Shown: piece by piece, positions 341 through 14,869 of the stretch
Layout: every line of letters starts with the position of its first letter
Numbering within the stretch: the stretch's first letter is position 1
The notes under the pieces: generated by a model
What the model was told of the DNA's origin: nothing
What the model saw: only the letters and a program-made list of their open reading frames with translations
Databases searched by the model: none
From: a virus
DNA: 64,000 nt
Strand: one strand, 5' to 3'
IMG/VR virus record: IMGVR_UViG_3300031576_001126
Location: 1 to 64,000 of that record
Position numbers and translations under genes: made by a program

Positions 341-375
341 CAAGAAGCTCACGCCTTGAGGCGTAAGTAGTTCAC
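341..375. repeat. GC-rich border hairpin, copy 1
   Basis: Bases 348-355 pair with 360-367 around a TTGA loop (one mismatch). On the plus strand the hairpin is preceded by AAGAAGC and followed by GTAGTTCAC. Read on the minus strand, GTGAACTAC leads into the hairpin and contains the TGA stop of the gene that ends here. The same layout recurs at 10860, and in related forms at 14325 and 14826. It resembles, from memory, the subterminal hairpin at the right end of IS200/IS605 elements or TnpB-associated RNAs. It may act as a 3' mRNA hairpin for the minus-strand gene. Confidence 0.6.
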
Positions 376-1145
376 TGATAAACTACGTCAACAATAAACG
401 AATTGCTTATTGTTGCTCCCTCAAATGTTATTTCAAATCCAGTAGACATTTCTGGATATTTACTGGATATATAAACTCTAACCCCATCTATAACCATTGT
501 AATGACTGGTCTATAATAAACCGACAATCTATCTCCACCTTGTATAAAAGTTCCGGCAGCCGAAGCCGCCCCTGGTGTCGAACCGTTGTCTGAAATCGAA
601 GCTCCGGTGAAAGCCAACCCATTTGGATTTATATTCACTAAATTAAGTTGACCTGTAGTTAATGAATCGTTAGAAACTCCTACTATTTTCGCTGTCGTTG
701 CTCCTTGTGTTAGTGTTTTCCCGATATTAAACGGAGATGTTTGTCCTGAAAATGTCAATATTCCTTTTGTGTTATCAAGAATTGGGGCCGATGGTAATGC
801 TCCGGCTCCTATGTTTAAACTAAAATCGTCTTGATTAACATTTTCTTCAAAATGAATTCCGTTATCTAATAATTGTCCATTCAAAAAAACCTGTAGAGAT
901 CCAACTTGATAAGTATCTCCTCCGGATAAAGTGGAGATGGAGTATTGATCGTTTCCAGTTGGATCAAAATAAATCGGGCCTTTTGTTGTCGAATTAGCGG
1001 TATCTCCTCCTCCGGTTATTATTGCCCAGGAAATTGGGAAACCAGTCTCAATAATGTGTGTTCCATTTACAGTAGCCGGATTTATTTCTATCCTGGTTGT
1101 TACGGGACTATTGTCTCCATCGGCAATAATAAATCTTCGTATCAT
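372..1145 (-). CDS. Putative virion structural protein with a T4-type 'SGATA' module
   Basis: About 257 residues from the ATG at 1145. A TTG five codons upstream is open but would overlap the preceding stop, so ATG is preferred; no clear ribosome binding site is seen, which suggests coupling to the gene ending at 1153. The protein is rich in Gly, Thr, Ser and Asn and predicted mostly beta. A central stretch (LTQGATTAKIVGV and following) resembles the glycine-rich GETITG-x-SGATA-type segments also present in the 1899- and 4146-residue tail proteins of this window. The N-terminus (FIIADGDNSPVTTRIEI) looks like the start of a small decoration or fibre-linked protein. It is the last gene of the leftward cluster and ends in the copy-1 hairpin. 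The exact role is unknown; fibre or baseplate attachment is an inference from its neighbours. Confidence 0.85.
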   Translation of the reverse strand: MIRRFIIADGDNSPVTTRIEINPATVNGTHIIETGFPISWAIITGGGDTANSTTKGPIYFDPTGNDQYSISTLSGGDTYQVGSLQVFLNGQLLDNGIHFEENVNQDDFSLNIGAGALPSAPILDNTKGILTFSGQTSPFNIGKTLTQGATTAKIVGVSNDSLTTGQLNLVNINPNGLAFTGASISDNGSTPGAASAAGTFIQGGDRLSVYYRPVITMVIDGVRVYISSKYPEMSTGFEITFEGATISNSFIVDVVYQ

Positions 1146-1152
1146 TTTTATA

Positions 1153-1569
1153 TTACACAAAAATTTCGTTAAAATTTATATTCCCATGATCCAGTCCATA
1201 TCCATATCCATAATTACAATGATCTCCATTTTTAATTTCTTCTATTTTCTTTATTTTGCATTTTAAAACTTCAGTATTATTTATGGCAAGTTGATAATCT
1301 CCTTGAGAAACATATCTTGCGGCATTTACAAACAAAGCTTTTCCCTCTTGGGAGGCATTATTAAACCAATCTAATATTATTTGTCTTTTGTTCTGATTTG
1401 AACTTTCCACTAAGGTTATTAGATTTGCAACATCTTGTATGGCTGCAATTTTATCCGATGAACTTCCTGGCGTATTTGGATCGGATATCATTGAATTTAA
1501 TGAGCTTACAAATTTAGATTTGTTTGTTAAAAAAGATCTTATTATTAATTTTTCATTTTCTGTTAACAT
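1153..1569 (-). CDS. Small helical protein with a C-terminal YGYGYG motif
   Basis: 138 residues with a good ribosome binding site (GGAGAG just before the ATG at 1569). Residues 1 to about 105 look helical and lack recognised domains. The C-terminus changes character: a short Tyr-Gly run (NYGYGYGLDHG) is followed by INFNEIF and the stop. This mirrors the ending of the 443-residue tail protein, where YGYGY is followed by FDINDLF, and the YGYG-DFFDVFG modules of the giant tail proteins. That link makes it a likely virion component or fibre partner, although the two genes lie about 60 kb apart on opposite strands. It sits 12 bases after the sulfotransferase gene and 7 bases before the next start, so the three are probably one transcript. 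No known family was recognised. Confidence 0.88.
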   Translation of the reverse strand: MLTENEKLIIRSFLTNKSKFVSSLNSMISDPNTPGSSSDKIAAIQDVANLITLVESSNQNKRQIILDWFNNASQEGKALFVNAARYVSQGDYQLAINNTEVLKCKIKKIEEIKNGDHCNYGYGYGLDHGNINFNEIFV

Positions 1570-1581
1570 TTCTATCTCTCC

Positions 1582-2397
1582 TCAACATAGATCGTTTATA
1601 TCTCTATAATCTATTCTTAATTTTTCAGATAAATCCTTTGGCAAAACATTTTCCCAAGGAACTTCTTCTGGTGGTTCTATTTTTGATCTTATTGTATGAA
1701 GATTCATTCCGTGCCAAACATCATTTTCATGAGTTACTTGAACTATGTTGTTTGGATCGAATTTGAATCTATTTATTTCTAATTTATCACAAAGATCATC
1801 TACAACCCCAACGGGATTGTTCATAAGATCTCGATATCTTATAAAAATTAGTCTATCGGAAACTCCCCTTTGAAGAGCGTCTCTCAGTCTGGAAATATAA
1901 ATGCCAACAACGCTTGATGGTTTTAGTAATTCACTTGCTCTTCCATAAACTGTTTGACAATTAAAAAAAGCATCTCCGGAAGCATCTATATAGTCTATTT
2001 TTCTATTTCTGTAAATTTTTTCAAAAGAAGACACAACAGCACGAATATCTCTTACCGTGGCGATGACTTTTATTTTATATTTTAGAATATTTTCTAATAT
2101 TTCTATATATTGAAGCCAGCCTCTTGATTTATCAAAAACTGTTTTATTTTGTTCAAATTCTTTTTCAAAATATCCATGAATTAATCCCTTCATGGAACTT
2201 TCTACTCTGGGTTGAGCAATATCCAAACCTTCGGCTTTGAATTCTATATGATTTTTCCATGTGCTTTTAATTCCTATTAATAGCTCTATAAGACCGCTTG
2301 TTGGAGTCACATAATGATTTTGAGATTGTCCTAAAATATTTAATAAAAGAGTAGAACCTGATCTAGGCATTGAAGAGCAGAAAAATATTTTTTCCAT
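1582..2397 (-). CDS. Sulfotransferase (PAPS-dependent, Sulfotransfer_3-like)
   Basis: 271 residues from the ATG at 2397, preceded by GGAGAAAACT; a GTG four codons upstream is a weaker start. Residues 9-18 (SMPRSGSTLL) form the 5'-phosphosulfate binding loop of sulfotransferases. VIATVRDIRAVVSSF, near residues 111-125, fits the 3'-phosphate binding strand and helix with its Arg and Ser. FIRYRDLMNNP, further on, matches the usual YEDL-like segment. Such enzymes move sulfate from PAPS to sugars, proteins or small molecules. Length fits a compact bacterial enzyme; no signal peptide or membrane segment is present, so it acts in the host cytoplasm. It lies next to the YadA-type fibre gene and near a glycosyltransferase, which suggests modification of a virion protein or of a host-surface glycan. 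The substrate cannot be told from the sequence. Confidence 0.88.
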   Translation of the reverse strand: MEKIFFCSSMPRSGSTLLLNILGQSQNHYVTPTSGLIELLIGIKSTWKNHIEFKAEGLDIAQPRVESSMKGLIHGYFEKEFEQNKTVFDKSRGWLQYIEILENILKYKIKVIATVRDIRAVVSSFEKIYRNRKIDYIDASGDAFFNCQTVYGRASELLKPSSVVGIYISRLRDALQRGVSDRLIFIRYRDLMNNPVGVVDDLCDKLEINRFKFDPNNIVQVTHENDVWHGMNLHTIRSKIEPPEEVPWENVLPKDLSEKLRIDYRDINDLC

Positions 2398-2441
2398 AGT
2401 TTTCTCCACAAAGTTTTCTTCAATAATATACGATTAATTTT

Positions 2442-5400
2442 TTAATCTGCGTAATAAACTTCTACGGCTTCGACCACGGCGATCCAGCGAATATTTGTGG
2501 CGGCAGCGCCTGTAACACTTATTTGAAGAAAATCGTTTGTGTCATTAGCAGAGAGTGTGACGGTCCAACCTGCAGAATTTATATCCGTTCCTATTGTTTG
2601 AGTCAATCCGACTTGAGATGTAGTGCCCCCGGTTCTTTCTATTAAAAGTTTTCTTGTAAATTCTGCATGAGCGCCTCCTGTGTCTTGTCTAGCTACAATT
2701 CTAACCCAAAAGTCATAAGCCTTTTCAGTATCAATTGTAAATCTAGAGGCGGGGGCGGCAGGGATTGATCCTGTCAAGGTTAATTCTGTTGGTGTGGCAT
2801 TTTTTGTGTCTGTAAATAATATTGTTCTTGTATATTGTCTTTTTCCAAGATCTGTTGAAGATGGAGCATTTCCCTGGGCATGTTGTGAATTTAATTGCGC
2901 ATGTCCACAAAAGCCTTCTGCATGCGATCCAAAAGCCCCACTTGCTGTGCAGGCCACTCCTTCTGCATGAGAACCCTGTCCACTTGCCACAGTGTTTGAC
3001 CCTTCCGCATGAGAATAAAGCACGCTTGCTGTCGTACAGGATCCTTCTGCATGAGAATAATCTCCAGAAGCTGTTGTTGATTCTCCTTCTGCGTGAGAAT
3101 AAAGACCATTGGATTCTGTAAGTTTTCCTTCTGCATGAGAAGCAATCCCAAGTGCAGTTGTATTATATCCCTCTGCATGAGAATAATTTCCCGTAGACGA
3201 TGAAAGTCTACCTTCGGCATGAGATCTATCTCCAGAAGCGGTTGTCGATTGTCCTTCTGCATGAGAATAATGTCCAGAGGCTGTTGTAGATTGTCCTTCG
3301 GCATGAGAAACATTCCCACTTGCTGTCGAACTTTTCCCTTCCGAATGGGAATTTGGACCTCCAGATGTTGTGCTTTCTCCTTCTGCGTGAGAATAATTTC
3401 CAGAAGATATTGTTGATTTTCCTTCTGCATGAGATCTTGCTCCAGAAGCTGTTGTGTTATGACCCTCGGAATGCGAAAAAACTCCAGAAGCTACAGATCC
3501 TCCTCCTTCTGCATGTGAATAAGTATTGCTTGCCGTTGTAGATTTTCCCTCGGCATGAGAATAATTTCCAGATGCAGTTGTGTCTTTTCCCTCAGAATGT
3601 GAAGTTATACCGCTTGCTGTTGTATTATTTCCTTCAGAATGAGAGACATAGCCTGATGCCGTTGTAGATTTTCCTTCGGCATGAGAATAATTTCCACGAG
3701 CTATTGTTGATTTTCCCTCTGAATGAGAAGAAATTCCAATAAAGGTATTAACACATTGTCCCGATGTTCTATCGTCAAGGGCTTGATTTATTGTAAAAGT
3801 TGTATTTACTCCGCCAAAAACAACAGCGCTAATAACTCTTGTTGTGGCATTTAATGTATTGTTTGATCCTCCGGTCAATCTAAAAATATTTATAGTTGAT
3901 CCGTTAGAAAATTCAGAAGTCACATCTCCTGAAATTGTTACTGTTGTTGATGATACTGTAAAGGTTCTGATTCTATTTCCAGATCTTGTGCTATCTCCTT
4001 CGGCATGAGACGAATTTCCAGAAGCGATAACATTATAACCTTCAGCATGAGAGGAATGTCCTGCAACTACCGTTTTTAATCCCTCAGAATGTGATGATGT
4101 GGAATTTGTTACGGATTCAATGCCCTCGGCATGTGATCCTGAGCCTCCTGAAGCCGATAAACATTTTCCAGCGGTTCTATCATCCAAAACTGAATCTATA
4201 TTAAATGTTGTGTTAACTCCTCCAAAAGTGGGTGTGCTATTTATTGTTCTTATAGCTGTGTTTAATGTTGAGTTTACTCCCCCAGTTAAATCATAAAATG
4301 TTATTTTACCGCCATTTGAATACTTTTGAGTCACATTGCCAGATATTGTTATAGTTAACGATGCTATAATAAATGTGTCTTTAGAGTTTGTCGAACTGGA
4401 TATTGATGAAATATTTTCAGAATGAGACCCATATCCTGAAGCAGTTGTTTTGTGGCCTTCTGAATGCGTATCTGTTCCACTTGCTGTTGTGTTATAGCCT
4501 TCGGCATGTGAATTTGTTTCGCTAGATATTGTATTATATCCCTCTGAATGGGATCTTGTTCCGCTCGATGTTGTTGATTTTCCTTCGGCATGTGAATCAT
4601 TTCCACTCGATATTGAATTGATGCCTTCTGCGTGTGAATTGTTTCCTGAGGCCGTGGTCGTATGACCTTCGGAGTGAGAGGCATATCCAGAAGCGACAGT
4701 GACATAACCCTCTGCATGAGCAGTGATATCGGAAGCCGAAGTTCCTTTTCCTTCTGCATGGGAAAAGTTTCCAGAGGATGTGGTGCTATCACCCTCGGCA
4801 TGGGAATAATCTCCGATTGAACTTGTGCTAGAACCTTCTGCGTGGGAATTGATTCCGGATGCAACTGTAGACTCTCCCTCTGCATGTGAATTCGATCCAG
4901 AAGATTGAGAGTAATAACCTTCGGCATGTGAATTTGCACCGCCTGATGTTGATCCATAGCCTTCGGCATGGGAATAAACTCCAGTACTTGTTGTTAATTT
5001 CCCCTCTGAATGAGAGGCATTTCCTGTCGATATGGTTCCATCGCCTTCGGCATGAGAATAAATTCCAACAGAATCCGTAGCGTTTCCTTCCGAATGTGAA
5101 GAATTTCCTGTTGATACTGTATTTTTCCCTTCCGCATGAGAATTTGTACCAAATGATGTTGTATAATATCCTTCGGCATGCGTATTGATTCCCGTGGAAG
5201 TTGTATAAAAACCTTCTGCATGTGAAGCTGAACCATCGGCTGTTGTGGTATTGCCTTCTGCGTGAGATTGTGGTCCAAAAGATGTTGTATAAAAACCTTC
5301 TGCATGAGAACCCTTTCCGGAGGCTGTTGTTGCATAACCTTCTGCATGAGAACCGAAATTTCCACTTGCAACAGTGGCCGATCCTTCGGCATGAGAGGCC

Positions 5401-7259
5401 GATCCGCTTGCCGTTGTATAAAAGCCTTCTGCATGGGACTCGTTATTGCTGGCCAATGTGCCTACTCCTTCGGCATGAGAATAGTCACCTGAGGCTTTAT
5501 TGTTCTTTCCTCCTGCTATGAATGAATAATCTCCACTAGCAACTTGATCCGAGGAAGTTCTTACTGATTGTAAATCTACTGCATAGATACCTCTTGCGTC
5601 TCCAGAAGAACCAATTTGCAAAGCTCCGGTTCCCTTTGGAACAATAATAAAAGAAGCATTAGCACCGGCATTTTCTCTTTTTAATTCTCCGTCTAGTCCA
5701 ACATTGCCGTTTACGCTTAATTTTTCAGCAGGAACCAAAGTTCCAATTCCGACATTTCCAGAAACACTTTGCAAAGAAACATTGCCATTGCTATCAATAA
5801 CCAAGTTATTTGATCCATCATAAGTTATTGTGCCTTCGTTTCCAGAAGAGCCTATGTGTATTGTTGATGGGCCAAGATAAATGTCTCTCCATCTTAAAAC
5901 ACTACTTCCAAGATCGTAAGTATCGTTTACAGAAGGACCAATTGATCCTGCTGTAGTTATCGTAAATACAGGGGTATTTGTTCCTATTCCAAGTCTTTTA
6001 TTGGTATTATCCCAAAAGAAATTTATCGGATCTCCGGATATCAGACCACTTAATCCCGAAAATAAAACAGAACCAACCGAAAAAGATCCTATACTTATGG
6101 AGTTTACAACATATAAATTTCGCCATCTTAAAGAAGATGATCCAAGATCATAAGTATTGTCTGTGTCTGGTCCAATATGACCAGCTATTCTAAAATGAAA
6201 ATCCGCTGTGCTTGTTGTATTTATTGAAACGTGTCTTGTTGCTTCATCTATAGTTAATATTCTGTTATTTAAACTGTCAGTAAATCTTATTTGAGTGCTT
6301 GAATCAAGATCATATGTTTGCATTGCTGTTGTAGTCGAATTATCTGCAACATCAGCAAGAGTTGGAAAACCGCTTCCAGAAAGAGAAATCCAGTCTAATT
6401 GTCCACTTCCAGATGTGCCCAAAAATTGTCCAGATGTGCCAGCCGTGGTTGGTAAATAAAGCGTAACATGACCAATCATTCCTGAAGTTGGTCTTGAAAT
6501 TGTGAATTTGAAATCAGAACTGGCTCCAGAAGCATCTGAATTTATAACAAACAAATCGTCTTTTATATTTAATGTTTGTATATTTAAAGTGTTGCTCCAA
6601 TTTGGGACAATGCCAGTTGATGTTAGAATTGTTCCGGAAGCCCCAATTCCAAGTCTGGCATCATTATTAGAGGCATTTCTAATCCATAAATCTCCAGCGG
6701 TTGTAAGGGGAGTAATAAGAGGTCCTCCGCTTCCGGCAGTTACCCATTGGGCATTTCCAATGGAATCAATACAACCTAAAATTTTTCCGGCAGTAGGAGA
6801 TCCTCCAGATATTCTTATTGTTCCTAAAATATTTGTTTGAACTGGAGTGGCTGAATTTTTTCCAAGATTTATAACTCCTGTTCCAGAAGGATTAGGAGAT
6901 ATTACAACATCTTCGTTAAGTCCAATTGAAGATATAATGCCGCTTATTTCTAATGCATTGATTCCAGTGCCAGCATTAAATCTTACTGCCCCGGCATCAA
7001 CGGTAATTATTCTTCCCGCTCCGCTTCCACCTGCATCATAAGCATTATCCAGACTGACGGAAGAAGAAAGACTCGTGCCTGGATCATCATACCAATTTGT
7101 AGAGCCTATTATTCTTCTTATTTGTGTTAGAATAGCATTGATTGTATCTTCCAAATAGACTTGTAAATCTTGAAGATCCTGTCCGAATGTTGGCGATTGA
7201 TATTGATCATTGAAATTATTTGGTTTACTTATCTGTGTGCCTGGATCAATAAGTGGCAT
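2442..7259 (-). CDS. Giant tail fibre with about 50 YadA-head-type repeats
   Basis: 1605 residues, ATG at 7259 after GAGGAATTT. Residues 1 to about 590 are a glycine/serine-rich beta fibre with two copies of a TYDLGSS-LRWR-like segment, common in phage fibres. From about residue 592 to 1453 there are about 50 copies of a 14-16-residue unit ending in SHAEG or SHSEG with TTASG between, the Hep/Hag or YadA-head repeat, which forms a left-handed beta roll in trimeric adhesins. Two ~80-residue cassettes interrupt the repeats (nt 4155-4380 and 3740-3970). The last ~145 residues form a non-repeat cap ending in a NIRWIAVVEAVEV strand. No S74 intramolecular chaperone triad was recognised. The protein is likely a homotrimeric side or tail fibre that binds the host surface. 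No signal peptide is present, as expected for a phage protein. Confidence 0.93.
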   Translation of the reverse strand: MPLIDPGTQISKPNNFNDQYQSPTFGQDLQDLQVYLEDTINAILTQIRRIIGSTNWYDDPGTSLSSSVSLDNAYDAGGSGAGRIITVDAGAVRFNAGTGINALEISGIISSIGLNEDVVISPNPSGTGVINLGKNSATPVQTNILGTIRISGGSPTAGKILGCIDSIGNAQWVTAGSGGPLITPLTTAGDLWIRNASNNDARLGIGASGTILTSTGIVPNWSNTLNIQTLNIKDDLFVINSDASGASSDFKFTISRPTSGMIGHVTLYLPTTAGTSGQFLGTSGSGQLDWISLSGSGFPTLADVADNSTTTAMQTYDLDSSTQIRFTDSLNNRILTIDEATRHVSINTTSTADFHFRIAGHIGPDTDNTYDLGSSSLRWRNLYVVNSISIGSFSVGSVLFSGLSGLISGDPINFFWDNTNKRLGIGTNTPVFTITTAGSIGPSVNDTYDLGSSVLRWRDIYLGPSTIHIGSSGNEGTITYDGSNNLVIDSNGNVSLQSVSGNVGIGTLVPAEKLSVNGNVGLDGELKRENAGANASFIIVPKGTGALQIGSSGDARGIYAVDLQSVRTSSDQVASGDYSFIAGGKNNKASGDYSHAEGVGTLASNNESHAEGFYTTASGSASHAEGSATVASGNFGSHAEGYATTASGKGSHAEGFYTTSFGPQSHAEGNTTTADGSASHAEGFYTTSTGINTHAEGYYTTSFGTNSHAEGKNTVSTGNSSHSEGNATDSVGIYSHAEGDGTISTGNASHSEGKLTTSTGVYSHAEGYGSTSGGANSHAEGYYSQSSGSNSHAEGESTVASGINSHAEGSSTSSIGDYSHAEGDSTTSSGNFSHAEGKGTSASDITAHAEGYVTVASGYASHSEGHTTTASGNNSHAEGINSISSGNDSHAEGKSTTSSGTRSHSEGYNTISSETNSHAEGYNTTASGTDTHSEGHKTTASGYGSHSENISSISSSTNSKDTFIIASLTITISGNVTQKYSNGGKITFYDLTGGVNSTLNTAIRTINSTPTFGGVNTTFNIDSVLDDRTAGKCLSASGGSGSHAEGIESVTNSTSSHSEGLKTVVAGHSSHAEGYNVIASGNSSHAEGDSTRSGNRIRTFTVSSTTVTISGDVTSEFSNGSTINIFRLTGGSNNTLNATTRVISAVVFGGVNTTFTINQALDDRTSGQCVNTFIGISSHSEGKSTIARGNYSHAEGKSTTASGYVSHSEGNNTTASGITSHSEGKDTTASGNYSHAEGKSTTASNTYSHAEGGGSVASGVFSHSEGHNTTASGARSHAEGKSTISSGNYSHAEGESTTSGGPNSHSEGKSSTASGNVSHAEGQSTTASGHYSHAEGQSTTASGDRSHAEGRLSSSTGNYSHAEGYNTTALGIASHAEGKLTESNGLYSHAEGESTTASGDYSHAEGSCTTASVLYSHAEGSNTVASGQGSHAEGVACTASGAFGSHAEGFCGHAQLNSQHAQGNAPSSTDLGKRQYTRTILFTDTKNATPTELTLTGSIPAAPASRFTIDTEKAYDFWVRIVARQDTGGAHAEFTRKLLIERTGGTTSQVGLTQTIGTDINSAGWTVTLSANDTNDFLQISVTGAAATNIRWIAVVEAVEVYYAD
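2900..5485 (-). repeat. YadA-head repeat tract inside the fibre gene
   Basis: About 50 coding repeats of 42-48 bp encode the SHAEG units. The codons vary enough that copies are not identical, but stretches such as the TCTGCATGAGA-type core recur throughout on the plus strand. Long antisense open frames appear here only because of the repeat composition. The tract would allow length change by recombination. Confidence 0.9.
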
Positions 7260-7283
7260 TTTTTAAATTCCTCACTACAAAAT

Positions 7284-7341
7284 AAAAAGGGAACTTTCCT
7301 ATCCATGTTTAATTCACACGAGATAGAAAAATTCCCTTTTT
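7284..7341 (-). terminator. Strong intrinsic terminator
   Basis: On the minus strand, bases 7341-7322 pair with 7303-7284 to give a stem of about 20 bp (two G-T wobbles) with an 18-base loop, followed by TTTTTATTTT. It lies downstream of the 112-residue gene and upstream of the fibre gene, so it would separate fibre transcription from the genes to its right, or attenuate read-through. The plus strand also ends in a T-run, so it could work both ways. Confidence 0.85.
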
Positions 7342-7715: not shown

Positions 7716-8522
7716 CTATTTTCTCCTTATAGCTTTTTCTGGATCGCTCATTACTACAGGTCTTGAAAAACTCGACTCTGATCGTCTTTCTCCGGATCCT
7801 CGTGGCGGAGCTTGTCGTTTCCCAGTATACGATTTTTCTCCAGGAATTAGCTCATCAATTTCTTCATTGAGAGCGACTCCTCCTCTCATGAGTAATTCGG
7901 TTTCTTTTCCGAGTCTTGTTCTTTCATTAACTTCCATTTCTTCCGTCACGGATCTCTCATTTTGATAGAGATCCTCTGTTATTGTTATTTCTCTTCCATT
8001 AATTTCTATTTTTTTATCTTGTTCTCTTACTGATCTTAAATCGTGAAGTTCTTTTTTTGAAGATTTACTTTTTGAATTATCATTTATGGATTTGTTCGAC
8101 ATTTCTTCAGAATATTGATCTTCTGTTATGTCTATTATTTTTCCACCATCATAAAGAGACTGGATTTCTTGACTATCTAAATCTTTTATGGATATTTTTT
8201 CTTTTCTTATGTAATCTATTATTTTTATTTCTCTGTATTTAGGATATCCAGCTTCATCATGACCGTCTTGGATATTGATAAAAATTGGTCCTCCGATAGC
8301 ATTTTTAATGTATATTTTTCCGCTTCCGCTTTTTTTTGTTTGGGCTGGTTTTTCAATTTTTTGTTCGGGATTATTTAAAGATCTTTGTCCAGAAGGTTCT
8401 TTGTTTTTTTTGTTAATGTTTCTTAATAAAGGATTGATATATCCATATTTTTCAATCATCATTGTTTTTTTTACACTTAAGGAATTTTCTGGAATAAATA
8501 TTAAAGAATTCGTTATTTTCAT
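7716..8522 (-). CDS. Charged protein of unknown function, coupled to the glycosyltransferase
   Basis: 268 residues. The ATG at 8522 overlaps the TGA of the glycosyltransferase gene as ATGA, so translation is very likely coupled. The sequence is highly charged. Residues ~70-135 carry the most ordered part (KIYIKNAIGGPIFINIQDG, then REIKIIDYIRKEKISIKDL), which looks like a small beta-alpha domain. The rest is Lys/Glu/Arg/Ser-rich and probably disordered, ending in a basic PEKAIRRK tail. No family was recognised. Coupling to a glycosyltransferase suggests it is a partner, acceptor or structural protein made in matching amounts. Confidence 0.85.
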   Translation of the reverse strand: MKITNSLIFIPENSLSVKKTMMIEKYGYINPLLRNINKKNKEPSGQRSLNNPEQKIEKPAQTKKSGSGKIYIKNAIGGPIFINIQDGHDEAGYPKYREIKIIDYIRKEKISIKDLDSQEIQSLYDGGKIIDITEDQYSEEMSNKSINDNSKSKSSKKELHDLRSVREQDKKIEINGREITITEDLYQNERSVTEEMEVNERTRLGKETELLMRGGVALNEEIDELIPGEKSYTGKRQAPPRGSGERRSESSFSRPVVMSDPEKAIRRK

Positions 8523-9967
8523 ATTGTTAACCTATTATAAATTTTGTCCACGAGAATGTTCCATGTGAAATTTTCTATTATATTTTGTCTTAGCTTTTCT
8601 GCTTTTTCTTTTGCCTGCCCATAGTTTTCATAAACAAATTTCATTGTTTCTCTGAGTTGTTGAATTCCTTTTTCGCCGATTACGGCAAAGTCCATATTGT
8701 CGTAGTAGCTTGAAATTTTTAATATTTCTTTTATTTCTTGTGATTTTGAATCATATCCTTCAATATCTATTAAATAGCTATTATCGTCATTAAGATAATC
8801 AAGTTGTCCAGTGCATCTGGTCATTATGACCGGAATCCCGCAAGCTCCAGCTTCGAGTCCGGGAAGGCAGTATCCTTCTCCACGGCTGGGCAACGCAAAA
8901 GCGTTGCTGATATTATAAATTAACGGCATATCATCTTCATCTATGGCTTGACCGACATGGACAATATGTGGAGGCTTTTCTGTATTTTTTGAATATTTAA
9001 GGATATAATCTTTTATTTGTCGTCTTATAACATCTATATCTTCTTGAGTTGATCTTCCCCAGTTTCTTGAAACAATTAATAATGTCACATCATCTTTGCT
9101 TGAGAATTCTTTTAAATAAGATTTAAACAATATATCGTGACCTTTTCTTAAACTCCACCCAAATACGGACAAGAATACAAATCCTTTTGTTTTTATCTGT
9201 AATTTGTTTTTTTGTTCTTGAATCAATTCAAATGGTCTGTATCTTTCTATATCAACTCCAAGTGGCATATGATAAGCTGGAGGTCTTAATCCCGCTTCTT
9301 TAAATATTTGCATATTATGCAAACTTGGAATCCAAACCTCATCTGCATTTTGACATTTTGCCAAAAAACTGGGAGGAACAGCATTGCTTTCTATCATTGA
9401 AAAAAGAATTTTTCTTCCTTTTCTTGGAAAAAATTTCGGAGGCATAATAGCCCAAACAGATGTGGCATCATCAGAAACCTTATTTTTAAGCATTTCATTT
9501 AATGCTGGTGTTATTTTTAATTTTGATCTAAGTTTTTCAATTCCACCAAGCCCGGCTAATTCGTGTTGTATTTTTAAGTCTTTTTTCAGATAAAGTCTTT
9601 CAAGGCTTTCTCTGTTCATTTTTCCATATCCGCCAACATCGCTAGATGGTCCAGCCCACCAAATTTCTTTGGTGGCATTTGAATTTATTTTCGGGTATTC
9701 TTTTGTTGATGATATGGATTCTTCAACTTCTCCAAAAGAAACAATATCAGAATTAGCTGTTTCTGTTTTATTTTCATTTTTTTGATCTATTCCATCTTCA
9801 GGCCATGGAATAAAAACTCCATTTTTTATAGCAGTTTTCAAGGATTCAGAAAGATCAATTTCTTCTTGAGTAAAAGCTATCTTTTTATCAGGATCAAAAG
9901 AAATTCTTCTATTTTTCAACTCAGAAAAGGAATAGTTTTTTCCGGAAATATTTTTAAAATTACTCAT
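8519..9967 (-). CDS. Glycosyltransferase family 4 (GT-B fold)
   Basis: 482 residues from the ATG at 9967. An in-frame ATG at 10048 would overlap the upstream gene and has no ribosome binding site. After an N-terminal extension of ~95 residues without recognised similarity, the GT-B N-domain starts at KEIWWAGPSSDVGGYGK (about residue 100) with its glycine-rich loop. The C-domain starts around FVFLSVFGWSLRKGHD and carries the GT4 signature EGYCLPGLEAGACGIPVI, with the two glutamates of the E-x7-E motif that hold the nucleotide-sugar ribose. The enzyme would transfer a sugar from a nucleotide donor and retain the anomeric configuration. Cytoplasmic; no membrane segment. Its place beside fibre genes and a sulfotransferase suggests virion-protein glycosylation or alteration of host glycans. 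Donor and acceptor are unknown. Confidence 0.92.
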   Translation of the reverse strand: MSNFKNISGKNYSFSELKNRRISFDPDKKIAFTQEEIDLSESLKTAIKNGVFIPWPEDGIDQKNENKTETANSDIVSFGEVEESISSTKEYPKINSNATKEIWWAGPSSDVGGYGKMNRESLERLYLKKDLKIQHELAGLGGIEKLRSKLKITPALNEMLKNKVSDDATSVWAIMPPKFFPRKGRKILFSMIESNAVPPSFLAKCQNADEVWIPSLHNMQIFKEAGLRPPAYHMPLGVDIERYRPFELIQEQKNKLQIKTKGFVFLSVFGWSLRKGHDILFKSYLKEFSSKDDVTLLIVSRNWGRSTQEDIDVIRRQIKDYILKYSKNTEKPPHIVHVGQAIDEDDMPLIYNISNAFALPSRGEGYCLPGLEAGACGIPVIMTRCTGQLDYLNDDNSYLIDIEGYDSKSQEIKEILKISSYYDNMDFAVIGEKGIQQLRETMKFVYENYGQAKEKAEKLRQNIIENFTWNILVDKIYNRLTI

Positions 9968-10016
9968 GTTTTTTACTCTTTGGTTTAAGAAGGTTTCGTC
10001 TGAAGACGAGAGTAGT

Positions 10017-10223
10017 TCATTCTGCGTTATACCAATCCTCAAGAACATCGGCTGATTTTTGAATCATAAAGCATATTCTATCTTGAATTTCTTCTAATGT
10101 TCCTTCAATTGTTACTGCATCACCAAGCGGTTCCTTTGGTTTGTTTTTGATAAGTTTATCATGATAGTTATCACGTATTGTTAAATCCATTTTGATAATG
10201 GCTTTGTATTTTAGGTTATCCAT
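10017..10223 (-). CDS. 68-residue protein of unknown function
   Basis: A short acidic protein from the ATG at 10223, first gene of the leftward run. Residues ~35-68 (VTIEGTLEEIQDRICFMIQ and on) look like one beta strand and a helix. No membrane segment or known motif. The ribosome binding site is weak (GGAAAGT at a long spacing). The gene lies between the divergent intergenic region and the glycosyltransferase with a 49-base gap, which supports a real gene, but function is unknown. Confidence 0.7.
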   Translation of the reverse strand: MDNLKYKAIIKMDLTIRDNYHDKLIKNKPKEPLGDAVTIEGTLEEIQDRICFMIQKSADVLEDWYNAE

Positions 10224-10308
10224 AAAAATGACTTTCCATCAACTTGTTTATTATACGAGAAACCAGGAGAAACGGCATAACTTTTCGTATTTATAAATGG
10301 AGATTTCA
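10224..10308. promoter_or_regulatory. Divergent intergenic region with a minus-strand -10 box
   Basis: Leftward and rightward gene runs diverge here. On the minus strand 10255-10250 reads TATAAT, a perfect sigma70 -10 hexamer about 30 bases upstream of the ATG at 10223; no good -35 hexamer is at 16-18 bases, so the promoter may need an activator. On the plus strand TATAAA at 10293 is too close to the start at 10309 to be its promoter with confidence. Confidence 0.35.
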
Positions 10309-10854
10309 ATGGAAGAGCAATGGGTTGTAAAAAATAATACTAAAGGCATACTTCTTTTCCCAAAGAATAAGATAAAATTTAACTTCTTTGGACAAGAAAA
10401 AGAATTGTGTTTTTTTACAAATAAAACGGTGTCTGAATTGGAAAAGGATGAAGAAGTAAAAATAAATTTAGCACATAATAACATAATTACTGTTTCTAAA
10501 ACCACGAGAGAAGAAAAAAAAGAAAATGAAATATATTCACAAATAAAAGAATTAAAAGACTTAATTATAAATTCAAATCAGAAAATAACACCGCAACAAA
10601 GTATGAATGTTGATATGGAAAGTATTGCAAAAGCAATAAGCAAAGAGATAAATATCAAATTAAATATAGTCTCCGGCGCTGAAAATGTCGTATTCTTAAA
10701 AGAAGAAGAAAGAATGCGTGAAGATATTTTGAAACAATTTGTGTTAAAAAACAGAGATAATTCTGAGAAAAATATTAAACATTTTGGTCAAGAAAAAAAA
10801 GTAGATAATGAAAGCGAAGGTAATGAAAAATTATTGGAAGATATAGATATATGA
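10309..10854 (+). CDS. Coiled-coil protein of unknown function
   Basis: 181 residues from the ATG at 10309, chosen because GGAG lies 8 bases upstream; the ATG at 10297 has no such site and its own codons supply the GGAG. Residues 1-55 form a small beta-rich head (KGILLFPKNKIKFNFFGQE). Residues 60-160 are charged and helical, with QIKELKDLI typical of a coiled coil. The C-terminus is acidic. It is the first gene of the long rightward run, and the next gene encodes an actin-like ATPase, so it could be a filament partner, adaptor or virion scaffold protein; this is only context. Confidence 0.85.
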   Translation: MEEQWVVKNNTKGILLFPKNKIKFNFFGQEKELCFFTNKTVSELEKDEEVKINLAHNNIITVSKTTREEKKENEIYSQIKELKDLIINSNQKITPQQSMNVDMESIAKAISKEINIKLNIVSGAENVVFLKEEERMREDILKQFVLKNRDNSEKNIKHFGQEKKVDNESEGNEKLLEDIDI

Positions 10855-10859
10855 ATTAT

Positions 10860-10898
10860 GTGAACTACTCTCTCCTGCCTAAAGGCAGAAGTCTTTTT
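10860..10898 (+). repeat. GC-rich border hairpin, copy 2; possible terminator
   Basis: GTGAACTAC at 10860-10868 is followed by a stem of 10872-10879 with 10884-10891 around a TAAA loop (one mismatch) and then TCTTTTT. It begins five bases after the TGA of the preceding gene. The T-run makes it a credible intrinsic terminator for that gene. The GTGAACTAC lead and the position just past a stop codon match copy 1 on the opposite strand. Confidence 0.65.
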
Positions 10899-10946
10899 GA
10901 GCAAGAAGGATAAACAAGAGATATTTCTTATATAGGAGTTAGAATT

Positions 10947-12059
10947 ATGTGTGCAGTAGGGGTGGACTATGGGACGAGTATACTTGTTTCGGCCAGAAAA
11001 AATGACGAGGGGAAAACCATTGTTAAAAGTGAAAGAAATTGTTTTATTGATCTAGACATGGATTTTTTGGACATGGTGGAAAAATCAGAATATAAATATA
11101 TAATTGAAGAAGAAAATAGTGAAAAAAAGTTATATGTAATTGGAAAAGATTCTATGATTTTGGACAATCTTTATTCATCTAAGGATATAAATGGAAATAA
11201 AACAAGTCGTTTAAGACGGCCTATGGCTTCGATGGTGATTAACAGCAAAACTGAAAAGATGGCGATAAAAATGTTAAAACATATGATTCAGGGTTTGGTC
11301 GGGAAGCCTAAATATGATGATGAAATTTGTGTAATCAGTATTCCTTCATCATCCTTGGATGGAACAATAAACAATGCATTTCATGCAGGAATGTGCGAAA
11401 GTTTTATGAAAGAATTGGGATATAATGTTGTCTCTATTAATGAGGCTCTTGCTGTTGTTTATGCAACAAATCCAACAATTGAGGTCGATGATGAAAAAAT
11501 AAATATGACCGGGCTGGGAATAAGTTGTGGTGGAGGCGGAATAAATGCCTGTTTAAGTTATAAATCAAAAGATATTGTTAGATTTTCTATTCCTAAAAGT
11601 GGAGACTGGATTGACCAGCAGGTTGCTTCGGTAACGCAACTTTCTTCATCGCAAGTTACTATGATAAAAGAAAAAAAATCCAGAGAAAAATTGTTGGATT
11701 TGTCTAAACCAAATTTTGAAAATGAAATTTTATCCGCAATATATTTTTATTATAAAGAACTTATAACAATTGTTGTGCGTGAATTTAAAAATGCTTTAAT
11801 TAAAGAAAAAATAAATTTTGAATATCCTTTGGAAATTATTATTTCCGGAGGAACATCTTTACCGGAAGGTTTTGATGTTTTATTCAAACAAGTGGTGGAC
11901 GAAATAAAATGGCCATTAGAAATAAAAAACATTAGAAGAGCGCAAGATCCACTTACCGCAACTGCAATTGGTTGTTTGACGGCTGCGTTGTCAAAAGAAA
12001 AGAAAAGCAAAGAACAAAAAACCGAAACAGAGAATCAGCAGGAAGAAAAAAATGTCTAA
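10947..12059 (+). CDS. Actin/Hsp70-superfamily ATPase (ParM/MreB-like)
   Basis: 370 residues, ATG after AGGAGTTAGAATT. Residues 4-11 (VGVDYGTS) are the phosphate-1 loop with its Asp. Residues 164-174 (INEALAVVYAT) match the connect-1 helix. Residues 189-200 (GLGISCGGGGIN) sit where phosphate-2 is expected, but the usual acidic residue is replaced (Ser-Cys before the glycines). Residues 297-309 (IIISGGTSLPEGF) are the adenosine loop. The last ~25 residues are a Lys/Glu/Gln tail. Members polymerise (ParM, MreB, phage Alp) or act as chaperones (Hsp70). It overlaps the next gene by 8 bases and lies before neck genes, so a role in DNA or virion positioning, or in assembly, is possible. The altered phosphate-2 motif leaves ATP hydrolysis uncertain. 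Confidence 0.85.
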   Translation: MCAVGVDYGTSILVSARKNDEGKTIVKSERNCFIDLDMDFLDMVEKSEYKYIIEEENSEKKLYVIGKDSMILDNLYSSKDINGNKTSRLRRPMASMVINSKTEKMAIKMLKHMIQGLVGKPKYDDEICVISIPSSSLDGTINNAFHAGMCESFMKELGYNVVSINEALAVVYATNPTIEVDDEKINMTGLGISCGGGGINACLSYKSKDIVRFSIPKSGDWIDQQVASVTQLSSSQVTMIKEKKSREKLLDLSKPNFENEILSAIYFYYKELITIVVREFKNALIKEKINFEYPLEIIISGGTSLPEGFDVLFKQVVDEIKWPLEIKNIRRAQDPLTATAIGCLTAALSKEKKSKEQKTETENQQEEKNV

Positions 12060-12618
12060 TTTTATAAAAAATATACTAATGCCTAGTAGAAAAAACAAAG
12101 TTTTAATAATAAAAGAAAGAAGAAATAATACTTTTAGAGAATATAGACTAGAAGGAAAATCTTCTCCTGCCGATAATATTATTGAACTTCCCAATTATCA
12201 GTTTTTTTTTGAAATATATAATGATAAAAAAATATTCCTTGAAAATTACAATTCCTTTCTTCCCTGGATTGATAGAAAAAATGTTATCTGGAGAAATCAA
12301 GAATCAGACTCTACTAAACCTGATTTTCATAAAGAATATAAAAAAGATAAGAATGCTTCTTTAGGCACTGTGTTTAATAATAAAACAGCAAAAAAAGTTG
12401 TCCTTGAAAACGAATATTTTAGATATTATGCAAAAGATTATAGAATTGTGTTAAAATATGTTAATATAAATAAAATAGAAGTTATTGAAGAATTATCTCC
12501 AGATAAATATATACCGCCAGCATTGGGATATAAACCAGATCATATCAAAAAAGACAATTTGTCAGAAGAAGAAGGTTTTGAAAAAAATTTGTCTGATCCC
12601 TTTGAAAAATTGGATTAG
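12052..12618 (+). CDS. Protein of unknown function translationally coupled to the actin-like ATPase
   Basis: 188 residues. The ATG overlaps the last codons of the ATPase gene by 8 bases and has GGAAG upstream, so the two are probably made together. Basic N-terminus (FIKNILMPSRKNKVLIIKE), then an aromatic-rich beta-like middle (NYQFFFEIYNDKKIF, then NSFLPWIDRKNVIW) and an acidic C-terminus. No membrane segment or recognised domain. It ends with TAG. Coupling suggests an adaptor or regulator of the filament/ATPase, or a head-neck component; neither is shown by sequence alone. Confidence 0.85.
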   Translation: MSNFIKNILMPSRKNKVLIIKERRNNTFREYRLEGKSSPADNIIELPNYQFFFEIYNDKKIFLENYNSFLPWIDRKNVIWRNQESDSTKPDFHKEYKKDKNASLGTVFNNKTAKKVVLENEYFRYYAKDYRIVLKYVNINKIEVIEELSPDKYIPPALGYKPDHIKKDNLSEEEGFEKNLSDPFEKLD

Positions 12619-12696
12619 CTGGCTGGTATTCGTGATAAAAGGATTTTTTCTACAATCTCCAGAAAATATAATTGATATATTTGTGGAGAAAAAACA

Positions 12697-13203
12697 ATGG
12701 CCCAATATTGTTCTATAAGTGATTTGCAAAGCATTCTTCCATCCAATGTTATCATTGGTACTAATGCCCTTGAAGAAAACACAACAATTATAGAAGATGA
12801 TGCCTTGAGCTTTATAAATTTTGCATCCAACATAATTGATGGAGCCATTAATAATATATATAGAGTGCCTTTGTTGACTTATAAAAGAGTTGATCTTACA
12901 ACTCTTATTCCAACTTTCACAGTAGATTTCCCAGAACCAATTAGATTGATTTGTAGTCGTTTAGCTGCCGGACAACTTTATGACGAGGTTATCAATGCAA
13001 ATCAAGAACCCAACATTTCCGAATGGGGTCAAAATATGAGAAATTTGGCTTATGATGATTTACAAAGAATAGCTTCTGGTCAAACTCTTTTAAAAGGACA
13101 AACTTTTGCGGGGCAAAGATTTAGAAGACAAGAGCTTCTTGATGATCCAAGACTTTCAAGACCTGGCGAAATGAATTTACCGTCTAGAAATCCTGGGAAA
13201 TAA
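12697..13203 (+). CDS. Head-tail connector, DUF1320 (Mu gp36-like)
   Basis: 168 residues, with GGAG upstream of the ATG. The N-terminus AQYCSISDLQSIL and the helix ASNIIDGAINNIYRVPLL follow the pattern of DUF1320/gp6-type connectors: a Tyr-Cys start, a helix carrying Asp, then 'YRVPL'. A later helix (ICSRLAAGQLYDEV) is also typical. The C-terminal ~45 residues (from GQTFAGQRFRRQELL) are polar and extended. Proteins of this group form a ring under the portal that joins head and tail. The next genes (a small unknown and a tail-completion candidate) fit a neck module. No portal or capsid gene is in the window. Confidence 0.8.
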   Translation: MAQYCSISDLQSILPSNVIIGTNALEENTTIIEDDALSFINFASNIIDGAINNIYRVPLLTYKRVDLTTLIPTFTVDFPEPIRLICSRLAAGQLYDEVINANQEPNISEWGQNMRNLAYDDLQRIASGQTLLKGQTFAGQRFRRQELLDDPRLSRPGEMNLPSRNPGK

Positions 13204-13219
13204 TGTTAGGACTTGACTC

Positions 13220-13519
13220 ATGGAAGATATTCAAGAATTTAAAGATATTTCAAGTGCTGTTGAAAAATTCCAGGCATGCATGAATAATGATGATGAATCA
13301 TTTTATAAAAATATGCCATTGAATTTAGGAGATATGATGGTCTCTGAAGAAGAAATTGTTGGCAAAAACACAGGAGATGTAGAAAGAAAAAACTTTATGG
13401 ATTTCGATTATTTTGATCTTAAAGAACAAAACAAATTAACAAAAGAACAAATTGAAAGAGTAGAACAATTTCAAAAAGTGAAATATTGCATTAGGGTTTC
13501 TGGAATAGATAGACTATAG
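13220..13519 (+). CDS. Small acidic protein of unknown function in the neck module
   Basis: 99 residues, ATG after AGGACTTGACTC. Acidic, Met- and Phe-rich, with no recognised domain. Residues ~55-95 (FMDFDYFDLKEQNKLTKEQI) look helical. It sits 16 bases after the connector gene and 10 bases before the tail-completion candidate, so it is probably a neck or assembly component. Confidence 0.8.
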   Translation: MEDIQEFKDISSAVEKFQACMNNDDESFYKNMPLNLGDMMVSEEEIVGKNTGDVERKNFMDFDYFDLKEQNKLTKEQIERVEQFQKVKYCIRVSGIDRL

Positions 13520-13529
13520 GCGGTTTTTG

Positions 13530-14321
13530 ATGAGTGTTTATTTTTTAACACAAGCAATGATCGATAGATTAAGATGTTTTTTTATGGCCGAATCACATTT
13601 TACTCAAACTGCCTTGGCTGGAGATGATGAAGTTAAAGTTGATACTACGGAACATTTCGGCATTCAAGCATTAAGAAAGGATTTCAAAGATTGTCTTATT
13701 TGGGATAACACAACAAAAGGACGGCTTATTTCTACGGGTTATGAAGGTGCCGATGCTAATATCATAAAGGGCGTTAGTAATAATAAAATATTTCTTGAAA
13801 ACCCATTAACAAGGGATTTTCTTTTGACGAATGAGCCTATTGTAATTAGAGCTCCCGGTGGGACAAGAATAAGATCTATAACTCTTGGAGATATTCGAGT
13901 AGAATTAAAATATCCTGCTATAATTATAGAACCTAAAGGCAAAACAATAGAATTTACCACATTCTCAGGAACAACAGAAACCGTAACCATAGATTTTATC
14001 GTCTATGTTAAAGATGATAAAACACAAGATTCTACAAGAACTCTATTAAAGGTGGTTGATACTCTTGAATTTATATTGATGACGAATTTGCATATTGCTC
14101 CAGCTAATAGCACATATGCTTTTGAAGTAACAAGCAAAGCTCATGTAAAAACAATAGATTATGGAGTTATTGCCAAAGGTAGTGAATTTGTCAAAGCTGC
14201 AAGATTATCATGGCAAGCGGATATGTATTTTTGGAGAAGCTATTTCAGCGCACAAAATTCTTCTTTGTCAGATGTTTCTTTGGATTTCGGAACTCTCGCA
14301 AGAAAAGAAGGATGCGAATAA
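13530..14321 (+). CDS. Putative neck / tail completion protein
   Basis: 263 residues from the ATG at 13530 with AGGCGG upstream; a TTG one codon earlier is open but not preferred. Mixed alpha-beta with many paired strands: a pyrophosphate-like loop (RAPGGTRIRSITLGDI), then IEFTTFSGTTETVTIDFIVY, and a helix DSTRTLLKVVDTLEFILM typical of tail terminator or joining proteins, where a beta sheet packs on one long helix. Position between the connector and the tail tube fits. Larger than lambda gpU or SPP1 gp17, so it may carry an extra domain. Assignment is from context and pattern, not from a clear signature. Confidence 0.6.
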   Translation: MSVYFLTQAMIDRLRCFFMAESHFTQTALAGDDEVKVDTTEHFGIQALRKDFKDCLIWDNTTKGRLISTGYEGADANIIKGVSNNKIFLENPLTRDFLLTNEPIVIRAPGGTRIRSITLGDIRVELKYPAIIIEPKGKTIEFTTFSGTTETVTIDFIVYVKDDKTQDSTRTLLKVVDTLEFILMTNLHIAPANSTYAFEVTSKAHVKTIDYGVIAKGSEFVKAARLSWQADMYFWRSYFSAQNSSLSDVSLDFGTLARKEGCE

Positions 14322-14324
14322 CAT

Positions 14325-14357
14325 GTCAACTACCTCCGCCTAAAGGCGGAGGCTTGC
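14325..14357. repeat. GC-rich border hairpin, copy 3
   Basis: GTCAACTAC at 14325-14333 leads into a perfect 8-bp stem (14333-14340 with 14345-14352) and TAAA loop, followed by CTTGC. It begins three bases after the TAA of the upstream gene. On the minus strand the order is GCAAG, hairpin, GTAGTTGAC, and it lies immediately downstream of the TnpB fragment, exactly where the right-end hairpin of an IS605-type element would sit. No T-run follows on the plus strand. Confidence 0.65.
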
Positions 14358-14725
14358 ATTGTCTCTAATATCTTTATTCCTAAAAACATTAAATTCACAC
14401 AATTGGTCTGTTGACTTAGACCTGCCCATAAAGTTTAATTTTCCATCTATTGGAAAATTAAACGATACAGGGAGTTTTCTGTTACTTCTTAATCCAATAT
14501 TTATACACGAATAACGACTTGAGAAGGAGAATCTGGAAATAATTTTCTACATTTATGGTAATTTTTATCATAAATAATCTTTTTATTTATATTATTTTTC
14601 AAATCTTTAAATATAAATTGAGACATAGAGTTCCAAATATTGGAATGTAATTGAAGAACCTTAATGATTTTAGTTAAATCATTTTGACAAGAAGTAGAGA
14701 GCTTGATGTTGTAAGTAACATTCAT
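14340..14725 (-). pseudogene. Broken TnpB (IS605 OrfB) N-terminal fragment
   Basis: From the ATG at 14725 an open frame of 74 residues starts like TnpB (MNVTYNIKLS) and ends in FPDSPSQVVIRV, matching the conserved 'LPSQMVVRAI'-type segment that closes the TnpB N-terminal region. A TAA follows at once, but the -1 frame stays open for about 50 more codons (LRSNRKLPVSFNF, then GKLNFMGRSKS) and stops inside the copy-3 hairpin. So the gene looks frameshifted and has lost its RuvC-type catalytic part and zinc ribbon. No ribosome binding site. Hairpins flank it on both sides (14325-14357 and 14826-14869), as in a decayed insertion element. A standalone short protein of 74 residues cannot be excluded. 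Confidence 0.55.
14433..14463. repeat. Perfect 13-bp inverted repeat
   Basis: Bases 14433-14445 (GTTTAATTTTCCA) pair perfectly with 14451-14463 around a TCTAT loop. It lies within the frameshifted part of the TnpB fragment. No T-run follows, so a terminator is unlikely; it may be a protein-binding palindrome or part of the element's structured RNA. Confidence 0.75.
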
Positions 14726-14784
14726 AATTACTATAATACGATAAATATTAGAGGAATACCTTTATTTTTTTTATAAATATGCTC

Positions 14785-14813
14785 TTGACAGAAGTGATTG
14801 AATATCGTATGTT
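14785..14813 (+). promoter_or_regulatory. Sigma70-type promoter for the 14876 gene
   Basis: A perfect -35 (TTGACA, 14785-14790), a 17-base spacer and a -10 of TATGTT (14808-14813). Start of transcription would be near 14820, leaving a leader of about 56 bases that is almost entirely the hairpin at 14826-14869. This is the best promoter seen in the window and gives the next gene its own control inside the late gene run. Confidence 0.7.
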
Positions 14814-14825
14814 ATTGAGAAAGGA

Positions 14826-14869
14826 GCGGCAATTCCTCTCCTGCCTAAAGGCAGGAGTCTCCTTGCCGC
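14826..14869 (+). promoter_or_regulatory. Leader hairpin between Shine-Dalgarno and start codon (border hairpin, copy 4)
   Basis: Two nested stems: GCGGCAA (14826-14832) with TTGCCGC (14863-14869), and CTCCTGCC (14838-14845) with GGCAGGAG (14850-14857) around TAAA, with 5-base internal loops. A strong AAAGGAG (14820-14826) lies at its 5' foot and ATTAAAATG follows its 3' foot. In line the spacing is far too long for initiation; when folded the hairpin would bring the site to within a few bases of the ATG, as described for T4 gene 38. It could also protect the mRNA 5' end. The inner stem and TAAA loop match copies 2 and 3. Confidence 0.55.

Follow-up and report, generated by a model that had tools for sequence, protein, structure and literature searches.

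The stretch of DNA analyzed here, referred to as the window, comprises the first 64 kb of the 140,188-bp virus record IMGVR_UViG_3300031576_001126, whose gene content (a Mu gp36-like protein, a minor tail protein and very long open frames) identifies it as a phage. Four GC-rich hairpins, at 341-375, 10860-10898, 14325-14357 and 14826-14869, had been singled out in an initial annotation as a family located at the ends of genes. We found their sequences, positions and distances to stop codons to be as described: the stop TGA at 10852-10854 ends 5 nt before 10860, the stop TAA at 14319-14321 ends 3 nt before 14325 and, at 341, the stop TGA (374-372, minus strand) falls within the GTGAACTAC lead itself. 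The third and fourth hairpins lie between two genes, here called A and B, and the features of this region are the following:

14325-14875, minus strand: decayed, internally deleted IS200/IS605-type tnpB element of 551 bp, between gene A (13527-14321) and gene B (14876-15775)
14305-14324, minus strand: would-be guide flanking the right end, antisense to the 3'-terminal part of gene A and placed by analogy with reRNA (PMC8612924)
14325-14358, minus strand: right-end (RE) hairpin ending GTAGTTGAC, with a perfect 8-bp stem and a CAA/TTG outer helix (53 bits; fold z-score −4.98)
14504-14725, minus strand: N-terminal relic of TnpB, 74 residues, identified by direct comparison with the TnpB of the viral stretch L131 and by a profile
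14785-14813, plus strand: possible, weakly claimed sigma-70-like outward promoter inside the element, TTGACA-17-TATGTT
14820-14826, plus strand: outward Shine-Dalgarno (SD) sequence AAAGGAG beside the left-end hairpin, a motif conserved in the left-end family
14826-14869, minus strand: left-end (LE) hairpin GCGGCAA...CTCCTGCC TTTA GGCAGGAG...TTGCCGC (predicted fold −28.6 kcal/mol, z-score −5.5)
14876-14881, plus strand: ATGAAA, the start of gene B, which read backwards is the target motif TTTCAT

A decayed tnpB element between two phage genes

Searching for the left-end pattern GGCAATTCCTC-N5-CCTAAAGG yielded seven viral stretches. L131 and L133 have the pattern upstream of an intact tnpB of the same strand, at distances of 151 and 73 nt, and the right end there carries a motif of the GTAGTTSAC type. 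Since the pattern precedes tnpB in these relatives, we identify the fourth hairpin as a left end, which together with the third closes a single element on the minus strand; right end, left end and tnpB relic follow the same order as in L131 and L133. The fourth hairpin, which the initial annotation had counted with the others on the strength of its inner stem, is a different part of the element, namely the partner of the third hairpin, which is a right end.

The tnpB-type nuclease gene is present in the element as a relic only. Its N-terminal piece is 32% identical to the L131 TnpB over 71 residues (E-value 5e-7), a protein that passes the NCBIfam model guided_TnpB, and was later matched by a profile at E≤1e-3; an intermediate profile gave a weak signal (9.5 bits vs 7.4 for the best shuffle). 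An early search of the window with the TnpBs of L131, L133 and other sources did not find this relic, and Pfam had no match to the TnpB pieces within 14325-14875. Downstream of the 74 residues, pieces in other frames extend towards the right end, with frameshifts, and the core is missing. The earlier statement that the window has no intact tnpB is correct, but missed the relic at about 14504-14725 on the minus strand. Across the 140-kb record we found no intact tnpB and, searching with PF01797, no Y1 transposase TnpA, in cis or elsewhere. Elements of the tnpB-only and PATE forms naturally lack TnpA.

Further traits of IS200/IS605 elements at this locus are subterminal hairpins at both ends, the lack of terminal inverted repeats and the motif TTTCAT directly before the left end. 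The joined flanks read TAA-CAT-ATGAAA and contain no repeat, which suggests that the target was not duplicated. We therefore regard the element as decayed and non-autonomous, not as an autonomous member of the family. It resembles the tnpB-only (IS1341-type) elements of the IS200/IS605 family and their reRNA/omega-RNA right ends, studied in ISDra2 (PMC8612924), in the RE hairpin at the end of tnpB, the overlap of the tnpB stop codon with the RE, the guide in the flank and the motif on the LE side. It differs from ISDra2 in its broken tnpB and deleted core, in its ends (GTAGTTSAC and GGCAAGG..GAGGAATTGCC) and in its motif, which is TCAT and not TTGAT.

To search for the hairpins we built a covariance model from 33 right ends of other contigs, to which the window contributed none. 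Two hairpins matched it over the full length (14325 with 53 bits, E-value 3.7e-10; 342 with 36 bits, E-value 4.7e-6) and two with the inner stem only (14838 with 22.4 bits, E-value 0.009; 10872 with 20.1 bits, E-value 0.03). The sole further match in the 144 kb searched is weak (9987-10020, 12 bits, E-value 2.8, ending GTAGTTCAT). The search of the whole phage genome that had been proposed therefore adds, save for this match, no hairpin to the four in the 140-kb record. The motif GTSAACTAC has one more copy in the genome (88877), within a gene and without a hairpin, and GCCTNAAGGC does not occur in the other 80 kb examined. The initial annotation had considered the hairpins as possible ends of short non-autonomous IS200/IS605 elements, and the family comparison, the covariance model and the alignment of left and right ends all agree with this. 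It is well supported that the hairpins represent the two kinds of ends found in RNA-guided-nuclease (OMEGA) elements of the IS200/IS605 type, and that at least three insertions into this phage gave rise to them. As transposon remains, they are ordinary, and this identity resolves the puzzle that the initial annotation had raised.

Right ends and the strand of their RNA

The right-end pattern GTSAACTAC-N5-CCTAAAGG was found in at least 120 viral contig stretches, and the counts on right ends given here and below refer to the matches listed. A real stem is present in 83 of 127 pattern matches; the 44 without one were left out of the right-end set. Where tnpB is present, it runs on the opposite strand and its stop codon overlaps GTAGTTSAC, the reverse complement of the motif, which identifies the motif as the right end of tnpB elements. 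A tnpB lies directly upstream of 36 of the 83 accepted hairpins according to tblastn, and of 40 of 87 according to a profile.

Two features of the stems point to the strand on which they act as RNA. The outer helix switches as a pair, being CAA/TTG in 34 and GAA/TTC in 30 of 74 distinct right ends, with a covariation of 0.58 vs 0.16 in shuffles (shuffles and slides served as controls). Further, the imperfect pairs, read on the tnpB strand of 76 stems, comprise 49 G.U and only 3 A.C. The excess of G.U pairs and the paired switching place the right-end RNA on the tnpB strand, contrary to the earlier assignment of the hairpin RNA to the strand of the gene whose stop codon it adjoins. This is in line with ISDra2, where the right end is reported to supply the 3' portion of the guide RNA, with the DNA that flanks it acting as guide (PMC8612924).

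Insertion at start codons

Left ends from eight cellular records and from viruses carry TCAT or TCAA a few nucleotides before the stem. TCAT reversed is ATGA, which contains a start codon and which in the window is part of the ATGAAA of the gene at 14876. The stop of gene A and the ATG of gene B were once 3 nt apart; the element now lies between them and its right end adjoins the stop. In such a tight operon, insertion right before the ATG of gene B is also insertion right after the stop of gene A, and a start-codon insertion motif (TCAT/ATGA) is a supported explanation for the location of the hairpins at gene ends.

For an unbiased view of left ends we used a pattern of the hairpin arms only, GGCAATTCCTC-N12-24-TCCTTGCC, which names neither an SD nor an ATG and was found in 80 viral stretches. 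The fold filter was passed by 56 of 75 distinct matches from all loci collected at that stage, and 45 of these 56 have ATGA 8-11 nt outside the stem; the 19 matches dropped by the filter include some that look real. In this first set, a start-type ATGA opens a frame of at least 100 codons in 22 of 43 cases, vs 473 of 2442 control sites. Among the pooled start-type left ends, the proportion is 40 of 86 vs 660 of 3325 control sites (p 2e-8).

The proteins that begin at a captured ATG include phosphoglycerate kinase (PGK), matched by its profile from the first position, CTP synthase (residues 2-265 on profile positions 1-265), an amino-acid permease, a crAss-type ring protein, a phage portal, cytidylate kinase (Cmk), RecO and an M42 peptidase. 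Gene B is often an important gene, as in the cases of PGK, portal, crAss ring protein, CTP synthase, Cmk and RecO. One genome holds seven copies whose sequences diverge immediately past ATGAA; six of them open 64-245 codons, including RecO and Cmk. In another, five copies of a family without SD open 2-21 codons; contrasts of this kind rest on few families.

In L131 (4253-4460), two left ends stand in tandem before one tnpB, the outer of the TCAA and the inner of the TCAT type; here one element is inserted beside another. It is the inner end that fits the TnpB of L131, and a tree of TnpB proteins in which L131 is labelled by its outer hairpin was for this reason not counted as evidence.

Right ends lie within 10 nt of a converging stop codon in 9 of 76 cases, vs 1.0% of 3040 random and 2.6% of 545 intergenic points. 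We rejected the idea that orphan right ends were recruited to gene ends, since those bearing tnpB are found there no less frequently (6 of 37) than those without it (3 of 39).

An outward Shine-Dalgarno sequence at left ends

In the first set, 37 of 45 left ends have an SD motif within 14 nt beyond the inner side of the stem, that is, on the side facing the transposon, with 1, 0 and 4 of 45 in control windows. The idea of an SD had arisen on eight loci; a set of genomes was drawn afterwards, comprising 232, 392 and 392 genomes of three phyla, of which 4, 5 and 8 had matches. It gave ATGA in 30 of 32 new left ends, an SD in 21 of these 30 (control 0 of 30) and a frame of at least 100 codons in 14 of 30. 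Pooled, with one of 89 left ends omitted and eight more for having less than 60 nt upstream, 61 of 80 start-type left ends have an SD next to the hairpin; the control positions have one in 2 (farther inside) and 1 (at the usual place before an ATG) of the 80. By pairing energy with the anti-SD (−4.4 or lower), these numbers are 68, 3 and 7 of 80. Left ends of the TTGA type have an SD in none of six cases, which represent about two families and include the outer hairpin of L131.

The stem is predicted to fold on the strand of gene B in 88 of 89 left ends. Along the chain, the start of the hairpin is 48-53 nt from the ATG (first set). With the hairpin looped out, the distance from SD to ATG is 6-13 nt (median 9, n=35) in the first set and 5-13 nt (median 10, n=21) in the genome set; for the SD at 14820-14826, we counted by hand about 7 nt to the ATG of gene B. 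As judged from sequence, SD, hairpin and AUG thus stand at a net spacing compatible with a split ribosome-binding site.

The 89 start-type left ends comprise 37 with a tnpB running away from the end, 13 with an iscB running towards it and none with both; the NCBIfam cut-off was passed by four of five tested IscB and by both tested TnpB proteins. Profiles found neither gene at a further 19 that have at least 1.2 kb upstream. IscB OMEGA elements (13 of 89) thus have this motif-side end as well, complete with SD, hairpin and ATGA, but differ in the direction of their gene, and none was found in the window. The SD is present in 12 of 13 ends with iscB, 25 of 37 with tnpB and 17 of 19 with neither. 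Being common to elements of opposite orientation, it faces outward whatever the cargo. The tnpB genes themselves have an SD of their own (energy −4.4 or lower) in 3 of 27 cases. Left ends without a nuclease gene also stand between ordinary genes, such as terminase and portal (L291) or UppS and CTP synthase (L364); in L364, a motif resembling a right end lies 346 nt from the left end.

An outward promoter in all left ends is not clearly supported: a score of at least 10 was reached in 6 of 42 outward, in 4 of 42 inward and in 2.5% of shuffles, and the region in the window has four promoter-like sites vs 3.4 expected by chance.

Proposed mechanism

Our proposal is that the outward SD, located on the inner side of the left-end hairpin, serves the gene next to the insertion. 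Once the element is in place, the messenger of gene B would read SD, the obligatory transposon hairpin, about 7-10 nt and AUG; the folded hairpin would bridge the distance, allowing the ribosome to use a split binding site, and gene B would stay translated. The adjacent SD would exploit a stem that the transposase needs. When the nuclease gene decays, the left end may persist as the leader of the gene, as it appears to do at 14820-14876. What the comparisons show is the position, the motif, the spacing and the predicted fold of the stem on the strand of gene B; that ribosomes use the left-end SD via the folded hairpin is what we infer.

A precedent is provided by genes 38 and 25 of phage T4, in which an RNA hairpin shortens the distance between a remote SD and the AUG to 5 and 11 nt, and in which translation falls when the hairpin is destabilized (PMC3014915). 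There, as here, the hairpin lies between SD and AUG; the difference is that here it is a transposon end, that some 50-60 nt are to be bridged and that the case is built on sequence. In the open-access literature, no title or abstract opening reported an outward SD in TnpB/IS605 ends, which is weak evidence of absence.

As an overall explanation of the hairpins, ends of OMEGA elements at a start-codon motif, with an outward SD and a hairpin that keep gene B translated, has in our estimate a probability of about 75%. Several observations weigh against it. The hairpin at 10860 is not at an ATG and the one at 341 lacks a left end. The SD motif is absent from 19 of 80 start-type left ends, and its absence from TTGA-type ends concerns about two families, partly from Bacteroidetes records, a phylum in which SD use is weak. 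In the genome set, where few families are represented, an SD goes together with a long frame B (14 of 21 vs 0 of 9, p 9e-4); the mainly viral set shows no such association (17 of 35 vs 5 of 8), and the pooled p is 0.10. The imperfect pairs of LE stems, read in the sense of gene B, are 10 GT vs 34 AC, so that wobble favours the transposon strand. This bias implies that the stem is tuned for transposition and not for the messenger, in which a hairpin would be a tolerated by-product. The bases of the SD may instead be recognized as DNA by the transposase. Finally, searching by protein found no close relative of the phage.

Other relics in the phage

Outside the element at 14325-14875, the remaining two hairpins represent separate insertions:

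10860-10909, minus strand: terminal-only, PATE-like element of about 50 bp, an LE hairpin fused to the RE terminus GTAGTTCAC
342-375, plus strand: right end alone, ending GTAGTTCAC, with one non-standard stem pair (36 bits)

The stem at 10860 aligns to the left end at 14826 with a score of 54 over 57 columns, the best of 500 shuffles reaching 26. It is followed by the RE terminus GTAGTTCAC, the model match being limited to the inner stem at 10872-10891 (20 bits), and TTTAT at 10910-10914 is a possible target motif. The element thus shows the traits of a terminal-only PATE, namely a near-terminal palindrome, one LE-derived and one RE-derived end, a length of about 50 bp and the lack of a gene. 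For the transposase-free PATEs of Haloquadratum, deletion of the core is reported to leave a terminal-only version of about 52 bp (PMC3119063), and 10860-10909 would be the expected remnant of such a deletion between two palindromes. Compared with these PATEs and with the PATE-like elements of Halanaerobium (PMC7290912), it is alike in form and size, but resides in a phage.

The right end at 342-375 supplies the TGA stop of the gene at 372-1160 (minus strand); its left part is lost or lies past the start of the contig. Decamers in tandem and repeats like them (TCCTCTTATC, CTCTTTTGTT) mark that start (1-190), where the assembly probably stopped. A C-terminal relic of TnpB (DRDLNAAINLANYKG) is located at genome positions 132922-133050, in the region 132922-133227 (L005:12922-13227), about 1.5 kb before a recA-like gene, and lacks a right-end hairpin of the kind seen in the window.

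Alternative explanations

The most serious alternative is plain decay, to which we assign somewhat worse than even odds. This account shares with ours the identity of the parts and departs from it on the role of the SD: the IS200/IS605 remains would be inert, the purine stretch would be a recognition element for the transposase on DNA and the position at gene starts would reflect mere tolerance of insertion between genes. The wobble bias of the stem towards the transposon strand agrees with it, as do the solo and deleted ends known from Haloquadratum (PMC3119063) and Halanaerobium (PMC7290912) and the 18 of 35 SD-bearing viral left ends that open fewer than 100 codons. On the other hand, the purine stretch matches the anti-SD, and its distance to the hairpin varies while the net spacing to the start codon stays at 5-13 nt. 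It is also common to iscB and tnpB elements and absent from all six TTGA-type ends.

That the right ends give trans-acting omega-RNAs, which steer a host or co-infecting TnpB to sites in phage or host, we consider very improbable for the window. Elsewhere, 47 of 87 right ends have no detectable tnpB, 33 of them with at least 1.5 kb upstream, and those in L092, L122 and L075 keep 90-190 nt of shared upstream sequence while their flanks differ. Two tnpB-less units in the viral contig L092 (3145-3307) are 141 nt apart and have different would-be guides; in the L047/L075 contig, one copy of such a unit sits with a tnpB. The right ends in L092, L122 and L075/L047 are candidates for trans-acting omega-RNAs. 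In the window, however, two of three right ends are degenerate (342, 10860) and inspection by eye revealed no longer upstream scaffold. The initial annotation had suggested guide-RNA-like transcripts for a TnpB located elsewhere and a comparison of the sequence 3' of each hairpin. The three 20-nt would-be guides match their own sites only, at up to three mismatches in the 140-kb record, and with the degenerate right ends and the lack of an intact tnpB in the record, such transcripts are not supported here; a TnpB supplied by the host is conceivable.

We consider it equally improbable that the hairpins act as terminators or mRNA 3' stabilizers of the upstream genes, the other role previously envisaged. 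The stems are GC-rich and stand right after stop codons, with gene-strand folds of z-score −4.8 at 14325 and −2.5 at 341. Yet the fold at 10860 is at chance level on the gene strand (−0.3) and better on the other (−2.2), two of the hairpins are not followed by a long U-run and the imperfect pairs (49 vs 3) put the family RNA on the other strand. A scan for intrinsic terminators gave one match (14348-14366, plus strand) with a weak tail, and TTTTT follows the stem at 10860 that folds at chance level. The insertion motif accounts for the position, and right ends bearing tnpB occur at converging stops in 6 of 37 cases vs 3 of 39 without.

Lastly, it is most unlikely that the purine stretch acts, on the strand of tnpB, as an anti-SD that hides the ribosome site of this gene: it does lie within 10-102 nt before most tnpB genes, and IS200-type elements are known to hide ribosome sites (PMC3196728), but an SD that could be hidden (energy −4.4 or lower) is present at only 3 of 27 tnpB genes and iscB elements, with their gene in the other direction, carry the stretch too (12 of 13).

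Genomic surroundings

The gene at 10947-12059 of the window encodes a volactin-like actin homologue (Pfam E-value 3.8e-56), whose relatives are distant: L126 at 32%, and a 485-kb and a 595-kb phage record at 29-30%. The 248-kb record of L126 contains no right end of the exact pattern. Searches for relatives of the gene-A protein, a 588-residue ATPase and a 590-residue protein found none. Between 19 and 62 kb, the window contains several giant open frames, among them one of 4146 codons (42010-54450), and genome positions 100661-109691 (L004) hold a block of glycosyltransferase and nucleotide-sugar epimerase genes. Rfam, at gathering thresholds, had no match in the window.

Implications

Extended beyond this phage, the sequence comparisons raise the possibility, which we rate a little short of even, that a branch of IS200/IS605 OMEGA elements, comprising both tnpB and iscB elements, targets start codons with an outward SD that a hairpin bridges to the captured AUG. 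Such elements would settle before essential genes without silencing them, and, once the nuclease is gone, the left end may remain as the sole ribosome-binding site of the gene. Transposon-end hairpins before start codons may be mistaken for regulatory RNAs. If true, the outward SD makes a testable prediction on the tolerance of insertions and offers a route from a transposon end to a fixed gene leader, and it would explain how RNA-guided elements persist, without being lethal to their carriers, between the packed genes of phages and small genomes.

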